64,000 nucleotides of DNA from Tsuneonella litorea (GTDB lineage Bacteria; Pseudomonadota; Alphaproteobacteria; Sphingomonadales; Sphingomonadaceae). A program made the translations under genes and the position numbers. The notes under the pieces were generated by a model. It searched no databases. It worked only from the letters and a program-made list of their open reading frames with translations, and was not told the origin of the DNA. How positions within the stretch are numbered: the stretch's first letter is position 1; every line of letters begins with the position of its first letter. This document shows, piece after piece, positions 37,623 through 38,637 of the stretch. Where the stretch lies: NCBI RefSeq assembly GCF_025154015.1, contig NZ_JAOAMV010000007.1, forward strand, positions 1-64,000, given 5' to 3'.

Positions 37623-37707
37623 TGGTGCGGGTGGTGGGACTCGAACCCACACGACCAAAGGTCAGGGGATTTTAAGTCCCCAGTGTCTACCATTCCACCA
37701 CACCCGC
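37623..37707 (-). tRNA. tRNA-Leu (anticodon TAA)
   Basis: On the minus strand a 7-bp acceptor stem (GCGGGTG/CACCCGC) encloses a D arm with GGTAGAC, an anticodon arm GGGGA-CTTAAAA-TCCCC with anticodon TAA, a short variable arm, and a T arm GTGGG-TTCGAGT-CCCAC; ACCA follows in the genome, so the CCA end is encoded. The -10-like TACGAT (reverse of 37718-37723) lies inside the adjoining islet, so the present promoter may have come with it. Confidence 0.95.
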
Positions 37708-37984
37708 ACAGTTCTAGATCGTATCCGAAACATTAGAAAAACAAAGGAAAAACCATCGATGCCAAAAGGGAAATGACCCAGATAGTTCGCGAATTTCGTC
37801 CCCATTGCCCCTCAAGCGGTCCCCCGCGTATCCCTTGGCCCTGCCTCTACAGCGGAAGTCGGACTAGATCGCAGTCTAGCTCGGGGTTGGTATCGGCTCC
37901 GGCGCTCATGTGTGTCCCTGGTTGATCTTGAAAGGGTGAGAAGCGCAGACTGTTTGTGGACTGTCTTGCATCAGGCTCCGATCG

Positions 37985-38377
37985 CTATGAGATATTCGAC
38001 GACGTATCGGCCGGAGCAACGTGGTCTGGTTCGTGCAAGCTAGACCGAAGAGAGTGCTGTAACCGAAGCCCAAAAGCGACCTCTTCTGCTAGACGTTGAA
38101 TGTCCGACTTCCGCCACTCCATAGGCGCGTCACGCAGGGCAATCGATAACACAGGTATCAGTTCTTCGGCATTGACACTCGCGCCGGTCAGCGGGACGCC
38201 GAAATGATCCGACAGTTTGATCGCTTCCTCCACCCAGAGGCGCCGGGGCCGCTCGTGACCACGTCTGAACAGGTTCGGACCCCGCGACGATGGTAGCCCG
38301 AGAACGTTGAGCACCGCCTGTCTAGTGGGAGCTTTTTTAAGGACTCGCTCAAGAAAAGAGTAGCGGTCAAAAATCAT
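37985..38377 (-). CDS. phage-repressor-like HTH protein without peptidase domain
   Basis: The 130-residue ORF has an N-terminal helix-turn-helix-like region (APTRQAVLNVLGLPSSRGPN, then LFRRGHERPRRLWVEEAIKLSDHFGVPL) like the start of LexA/C1-type prophage repressors. It then ends in a charged tail with no Ser-Lys peptidase domain, so it may be truncated. No Shine-Dalgarno site is seen, but a perfect inverted repeat touches the start codon. Its composition is less GC-biased than the neighbours, fitting transfer. Identity rests on weak pattern similarity. Confidence 0.5.
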   Translation of the reverse strand: MIFDRYSFLERVLKKAPTRQAVLNVLGLPSSRGPNLFRRGHERPRRLWVEEAIKLSDHFGVPLTGASVNAEELIPVLSIALRDAPMEWRKSDIQRLAEEVAFGLRLQHSLRSSLHEPDHVAPADTSSNIS

Positions 38378-38378
38378 T

Positions 38379-38393
38379 ACGCTGCATTAGCGT
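38379..38393. promoter_or_regulatory. inverted repeat at the repressor-like gene's start
   Basis: ACGCT-gcatt-AGCGT is a perfect 5+5 dyad one base from the ATG of the HTH gene, where an autoregulatory operator would be expected. It is followed by TTGACG-like sequence on the minus strand. Short dyads can occur by chance. Confidence 0.35.
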
Positions 38394-38597
38394 CAATCGG
38401 GGGTGGCGCTAGGCCGAACGCGGACGCTGTGCCAAATTTTTGCACTGCGTCGAATGCACGTGTTTAAGCTCAAGTGTGTGGGTCTGAGAGAAGGTTGGGG
38501 TCTGATGGCGCCCACAATAGCCCCCGCGCCCGCGGCTCCTTATCAAAAAACGCAATGGTTTCAATAATTTATTCACACGGCTACCTTGCTTAAGGGC

Positions 38598-38637
38598 GAT
38601 TTTAAGTCCCCGGCGTCTACCGTTCCGCCACACCCGC
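38598..38637 (-). pseudogene. 5' half-copy of tRNA-Leu
   Basis: Read on the minus strand, 40 bases from GCGGGTG to the anticodon loop match the intact tRNA-Leu(TAA) 0.9 kb away at all but four positions (in the D arm and just before the anticodon stem), then similarity stops apart from a few bases. The fragment's D arm (GGCGGAACGGTAGACGC) looks like the common alphaproteobacterial form, suggesting it is the original gene's displaced 5' end. It has no 3' half, so it cannot make a tRNA. Confidence 0.85.

Follow-up and report, generated by a model that had tools for sequence, protein, structure and literature searches.

A probable phage-like integration that rebuilt the first half of the tRNA-Leu(UAA) gene of Tsuneonella litorea and left an 890-bp islet

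Elements that integrate into transfer RNA (tRNA) genes usually restore the second half of the gene; the reverse geometry, in which the element rebuilds the front, is a known minority, and its mechanism has already been described. Tyrosine recombinases often cross over at the anticodon loop: in the Islander collection (PMC4383910), 2083 of 3919 islands have anticodon-centred sites, and 159 of the 3919 carry a 5′ fragment of a tRNA gene. A review of related systems (PMC8371274) describes integration into the 5′ half as seldom met in bacteria. Here we describe a locus of the minority kind on contig NZ_JAOAMV010000007.1 of the sphingomonad Tsuneonella litorea, contained in a window of 64,000 nucleotides (nt), the whole stretch of DNA that was analysed. 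Between ihfB and pilZ, a 40-nt first half of a tRNA-Leu gene and an intact tRNA-Leu(TAA) gene enclose a foreign islet. An earlier reading of the window, made from sequence alone, had called this arrangement the reverse of the usual case; that is correct, though the case was already described, and the new part is the combination of a relic with a clean polarity of the two halves. Literature searches named no such locus among the papers listed.

Like the Islander islands with a 5′ fragment, the locus has an intact tRNA gene with the fragment on the upstream side and in the same orientation. Unlike them, it has neither of the two properties that the Islander filter requires, an integrase and a length of at least 2 kb; at 890 bp the islet is below the minimum length, and the locus would be filtered out. 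In the T7-like cyanophages P-SSP7 and S-TIP37 (Shitrit et al. 2021, PMC8776855), the phage attachment site (attP) is the first half of tRNA-Leu, 39 bp long, and integration into the host tRNA-Leu gene was shown by polymerase chain reaction. The shared block in the window is likewise a tRNA-Leu first half and of nearly the same length (40 nt against about 39 nt). However, the P-SSP7-type phages are whole phages of cyanobacteria that form no stable lysogens, whereas the window holds a fixed, integrase-less relic with a repressor-like open reading frame (ORF) in a sphingomonad. The archaeal pTN3-like integrases treated in the review also have their site in the 5′ half of the tRNA gene, and the rebuilt tRNA is expressed from element DNA; in contrast to the window, these systems are archaeal and it is the integrase promoter that drives the tRNA. 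Finally, in tRNA-dependent lysogeny of the mycobacteriophage type, the host tRNA is not rebuilt and the phage brings a whole tRNA gene (PMC10865867); in the window, by contrast, the host second half is reused and remains collinear with sister genomes.

Read along the minus strand, the locus consists of ihfB, 59 bp, the 40-nt tRNA-Leu first half, the islet of 890 bp, the 85-nt intact tRNA-Leu(TAA) gene, about 155 bp and pilZ; the intact gene (37623-37707, minus) is the sole tRNA that ARAGORN calls in the window. The half copy lies in the same orientation as the intact gene, 0.9 kb away as the sequence-only reading had it (890 bp between), and is identical to nt 1-40 of that gene at 36 of 40 positions, with mismatches at nt 11, 16, 24 and 26. 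When a 16-kb stretch was searched against itself, the half copy was recovered with an expectation value (E) of 4e-9, and is therefore not a chance match. The two copies match from tRNA nt 1 onward and no further than nt 40, a position within the 3′ strand of the anticodon stem, and they are identical over the final 14 nt (27-40, GGGGACTTAAAATC), which span the anticodon stem-loop; the claim that the shared sequence ends in this stem-loop was thus borne out. The same reading had set a canonical D arm in the half copy against a departing one in the intact gene. The four differing positions are real, but the contrast did not hold, as both D arms are canonical: the changes C11->U and G24->A in the intact gene are compensatory and convert a C11-G24 pair of the D stem into U11-A24, as expected if the newcomer half had evolved as a tRNA elsewhere.

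The chimeric working tRNA scores 60.5 bits against the Rfam model, compared with 59.0-60.1 bits in four same-genus genomes. A pattern search allowing either state of the D stem matched 178 of 397 family genomes, and among the matches listed every one outside the window’s own genome has C11-G24. Of 375 other genomes sampled across the class, 4 have the U11-A24 type at two mismatches or fewer.

Comparison with sister loci reveals which half belongs to the host. The window is collinear with its sisters on both sides of the insert, and in one of them (L112) both alignments include the same 43 bp, which are the repeated half. The half copy agrees with sisters L112 and L119 at 39 of 39 positions, including the C at nt 16, whereas the first half of the intact gene agrees at 35 of 39; nt 40-85 of the intact gene are identical at 41-42 of 46 positions. 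Because it is the half copy that fully agrees with the sisters, the host’s own half has stayed with ihfB and the working gene carries the newcomer. Judged from these alignments, the half copy is the displaced host half and the working first half was supplied by an element, which supports the sequence-only reading on its central point.

We consider it highly probable that the anticodon stem-loop of tRNA-Leu(UAA) was entered by a temperate phage or phage-like element, which rebuilt the first half of the gene and was then mostly lost. We propose that the element entered by a tyrosine-recombinase crossover, that the working gene was rebuilt from the element’s first half and the host’s second half, the latter still beside pilZ, and that most of the element, its integrase included, later disappeared. 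What remains would be the 890 bp with one repressor-like ORF, perhaps kept because the cell’s only detected tRNA-Leu(UAA) depends on the edge of the islet.

The empty site is seen in relatives. A scan of genome contigs with IhfB, of which the best 80 loci were kept, placed an intact tRNA-Leu(TAA) gene 49-330 bp behind ihfB at 62 of the 80 and further away (570-2039 bp) at 8; ARAGORN detected no tRNA-Leu(TAA) in the stretch examined at the other 10. Seven loci (L024, L041, L047, L050, L064, L074, L080) have 1.8-2.0 kb between ihfB and tRNA-Leu without a half copy, and these spacers are apparently an unrelated insertion or gene. Every one of ten same-genus genomes has a single intact tRNA-Leu gene, 57-435 bp behind ihfB, and no tRNA-Leu fragment was found in the 18.5-19 kb read from each; IhfB of the window is 94.6% identical to that of two such genomes (G047, G347). 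An uninterrupted gene about 60 bp behind ihfB, which the sequence-only reading had anticipated, is therefore present in most relatives read, and the same two copies with the islet, which would have marked a stable ancestral arrangement, occur in no relative examined. On the other side, pilZ starts 145-186 bp behind the tRNA gene in seven of the ten same-genus genomes (155 bp in the window); in the others it is 8 kb from the tRNA gene in one and was not found in two. The 8-kb case (L120, 9150-17198, genome G367) has about 8 kb of extra DNA between tRNA-Leu and pilZ, with no recognisable tRNA fragment. The longer tRNA-to-pilZ gaps of nine loci (L013, L014, L018, L025, L049, L061, L076, L079, L120) show no tRNA fragment in the stretch examined, where the longest word shared with the tRNA is at most 12 nt, and no similarity to three integrases.

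That the islet is small and foreign was confirmed: it is absent from the aligned sisters, and its guanine-plus-cytosine (GC) content is 0.548 against 0.686 for the window, a value as low as which was found in none of 1191 other 891-bp stretches taken every 50 bp along the window. An insert between two direct copies could also arise by partial duplication, if an error of replication or repair had doubled the first half of the gene and unrelated DNA had entered between the copies later. The direct repeat is only 40 nt long, the islet has no recognised recombinase gene, and the 14 integrase (PF00589) matches in the genome all lie outside the window’s contig (C30), findings that would suit such an origin. 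Yet the copy runs exactly from tRNA nt 1 into the anticodon stem, and the copy that diverges from the sisters, by a compensatory pair, is the downstream, working one. Moreover, the two copies have unrelated upstream sequences, so that the region before the working copy bears no relation to the host promoter region; for this reason simple duplication fits poorly, and we judge it very unlikely.

Integration by a phage-like element finds further support in the 130-aa ORF of the islet, which has a homolog in Sphingopyxis phage VSN-002 (MZ127829.1; tblastn, 38% identity over 94%, E 3e-9). In the phage this gene is divergent from YdaS/YdaT-like and CII-like genes, which is the place of a repressor, its presumed role. 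The ORF has no Pfam, PHROG or NCBIfam match; one relative was found in phages, none in plasmids and none in viral contigs, and among 396 genomes sampled from the order there is one relative besides the ORF itself. Genome G535 was rejected as a source of a second independent homolog, since it holds VSN-002 as a prophage (99.99% identical over 15.9 kb) with an identical protein, leaving a single independent relative of the islet ORF. When six-frame pieces of the islet were compared with VSN-002, no other match fell below E 0.03, so no second phage gene is recognisable. VSN-002 itself was rejected as the integrating element, as its best exact word shared with the tRNA-Leu half is 13 nt; the islet ORF therefore does not name that element. 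The idea that VSN-002 is a linear-plasmid prophage was likewise rejected: the annotation ‘telomere resolvase’ (L151, 14717-15835) looks wrong, as the product is identical over 372 aa to the PF00589 tyrosine integrase of the prophage in G535.

The islet is compact and its ORF uninterrupted from start to stop, as would also be the case for a minimal satellite that lacked an integrase from the outset, had no more than a repressor-like gene between its att ends and relied on the integrase of a helper phage for insertion in trans; any of the 14 PF00589 matches could have acted in this way. A mobile satellite should recur, however, and no other copy of the islet is among the matches listed for 396 other family genomes, phages and plasmids. 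In those 396 genomes, with two candidates scored per genome, all of the matches listed are confined to the first 53 bases of the query, its tRNA end. We therefore regard a satellite as unlikely.

Several results weigh against the integration of a phage-like element. No parent element was found: the exact 34-nt half of the element type has no hit in viral contigs, and no phage or plasmid record covers 80% of the region. With the whole region as query, the best 20 of 299 phage records match only in tRNA stretches, and so do the best 20 of 44 plasmid records, one of which also matches the host side of the half copy. VSN-002, the sole independent relative of the ORF, is without a tRNA-Leu half. 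Neither of the two islet ORFs scanned has a Pfam, PHROG or NCBIfam match and no integrase is recognisable in the islet, in line with the sequence-only reading; we accordingly file the islet as a relic and not as an intact island. Lastly, a promoter scan finds nothing upstream of the intact gene, though the same scan also misses the host promoter; its one consensus site is unrelated to either tRNA copy.

Phages with an attachment site of the predicted kind do exist. A degenerate first-half pattern matched 11 viral contigs, of which two (L156, L159) have a bare first half and nine a full tRNA-Leu gene. In L156 an integrase gene is followed after 126 bp by a bare tRNA-Leu first half of the U11-A24 type. 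In L159, a contig of 37,954 bp, the bare half is of the same type and lies within 1-300, near the contig end and directly before a phage RNA polymerase gene. Both carry the kind of attP predicted for the integrating element. L159 looks T7-like, and its half-tRNA before the RNA polymerase gene recalls the cyanophages. An integrase directly upstream of the tRNA-Leu first half, present in L156 and in contig L147 of Novosphingobium marinum, is not in the islet, where it was either lost or never present.

The nine contigs with a full gene show that phages with a complete tRNA-Leu are common, and a phage fragment with a whole tRNA-Leu gene could have been acquired by homologous or illegitimate capture, the chimera then arising by gene conversion. 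Against this, the second half of the working gene and everything behind it are of the host by position and by sequence, and the anticodon loop is a usual crossover site of integrases. We find capture of a fragment barely credible.

Integration of a phage-like element has consequences for transcription of the gene. An attP that carries the second half of a tRNA leaves the host promoter in charge; an attP with the first half displaces the old promoter along with the half that it served, so that a new start has to come from the element. The locus in the window fits the latter case. By simple pattern, a TTG and CTA(G) pair is present in 32 of 81 upstream regions, with a spacing of 22 nt in 27 of the 32, and absent from 49; the flank of the half copy also has such a pair, TTG and CTAG, at the 22-nt spacing. 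In the islet, a weak TTGTTT and TACGAT pair, 15 nt apart, was read by eye and has no tool support. It is likely that the element brought a replacement promoter, and the tRNA would then be transcribed from a start in the islet. The 130-aa ORF ends 277 bp upstream of the working tRNA on the same strand, and read-through from it into tRNA-Leu is possible.

The same tRNA gene has been entered elsewhere. In N. marinum (G621; L070 5950-12273, L148) the first part of tRNA-Leu(UAA), as far as the T loop, has remained behind ihfB and is followed by phage-like DNA, and on another contig (L147, 1-4700) an integrase gene leads into a complete, restored tRNA-Leu, its frame continuing across the whole tRNA gene, after which comes pilZ. 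These contigs probably represent the two ends of one element. As in the window, the gene lies between ihfB and pilZ and its first part is left with ihfB, giving the same polarity. Unlike the window, the crossover is in the T loop, integrase and phage-like genes are kept, and 48 of 50 nt upstream of both copies agree, so that this element has a promoter like that of the host, nearly a copy of the original. Genome G235 (L149, L150) contains a 1.6-kb element of the usual kind: a complete tRNA gene lies beside ihfB at a contig end, and a second contig starts with the same 121 bp, followed by a C-terminal integrase fragment, a 56-nt second-half fragment 1.6 kb on and then pilZ. A fragment scan of 107 loci (fragments of at least 18 nt, E < 0.01; some loci are one genome counted twice) found 96 with a tRNA, 2 of which have a fragment, the window and G235; the scan misses N. 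marinum, where the case is split over two contigs. Three different elements, those of the window, N. marinum and G235, appear to have entered this gene in one bacterial order, and from both sides.

In the pattern search of this genome only one tRNA-Leu(UAA) was detected, the chimera; the second-best match reads TCAAAAT and looks like tRNA-Leu(CAA). The UUA codon accounts for none of the 237 leucine codons in seven neighbouring genes. We suggest only tentatively, and hold it rather doubtful, that the single detected tRNA-Leu(UAA), reading a very rare UUA, has become fixed as a chimera with a phage first half and promoter, and that the repressor-like gene may be co-transcribed with it or regulate it. 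If so, an essential, seldom-used tRNA is hostage to a dead phage, and the relic could not be deleted without restoring the old gene. More generally, front-rebuilding elements must bring a promoter and can thereby rewire the expression of a core gene, whereas with elements of the usual kind the old promoter stays where it was. The exchange at this locus is clean enough to read and to test, and the type of scar, with no integrase and less than 2 kb long, is one that island finders such as Islander discard.

Table 1. Features of the tRNA-Leu(UAA) locus and its flanks in the window.
Feature	Coordinates	Strand	Remarks
ihfB (HU/IHF family)	38697..38978	-	Host flank, 5′ side of old tRNA gene; Pfam Bac_DNA_binding E 3.9e-32
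Old host promoter region of tRNA-Leu, now orphaned	38638..38696	-	TTG + CTAG elements 22 nt apart, like relatives
Displaced host first half of tRNA-Leu(UAA), nt 1-40	38598..38637	-	One insert junction; identity to sisters L112, L119
Foreign islet, 890 bp, between both copies	37708..38597	.	Absent from aligned sisters; low GC
130-aa ORF	37985..38377	-	Homolog of gene in repressor position, phage VSN-002
Element-supplied first half of working tRNA-Leu(UAA), U11-A24 type	37668..37707	-	Other insert junction
Host second half of tRNA-Leu(UAA) with CCA	37623..37667	-	Ancestral place before pilZ; sister identity
PilZ-domain gene	36818..37468	-	Host flank, 3′ side; Pfam PilZ E 1.3e-15; position kept in many relatives

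Three further genomes with at least two pattern matches each (G125, G247, G300) were considered as parallels and dropped, because the copies read are full tRNA-Leu genes. G125 (L127, L128, L137, L138) has four intact tRNA-Leu(TAA) genes with differing flanks, three of them on small contigs of 13-18 kb, unlike the pattern-matching genomes of the family, which mostly show one tRNA-Leu.
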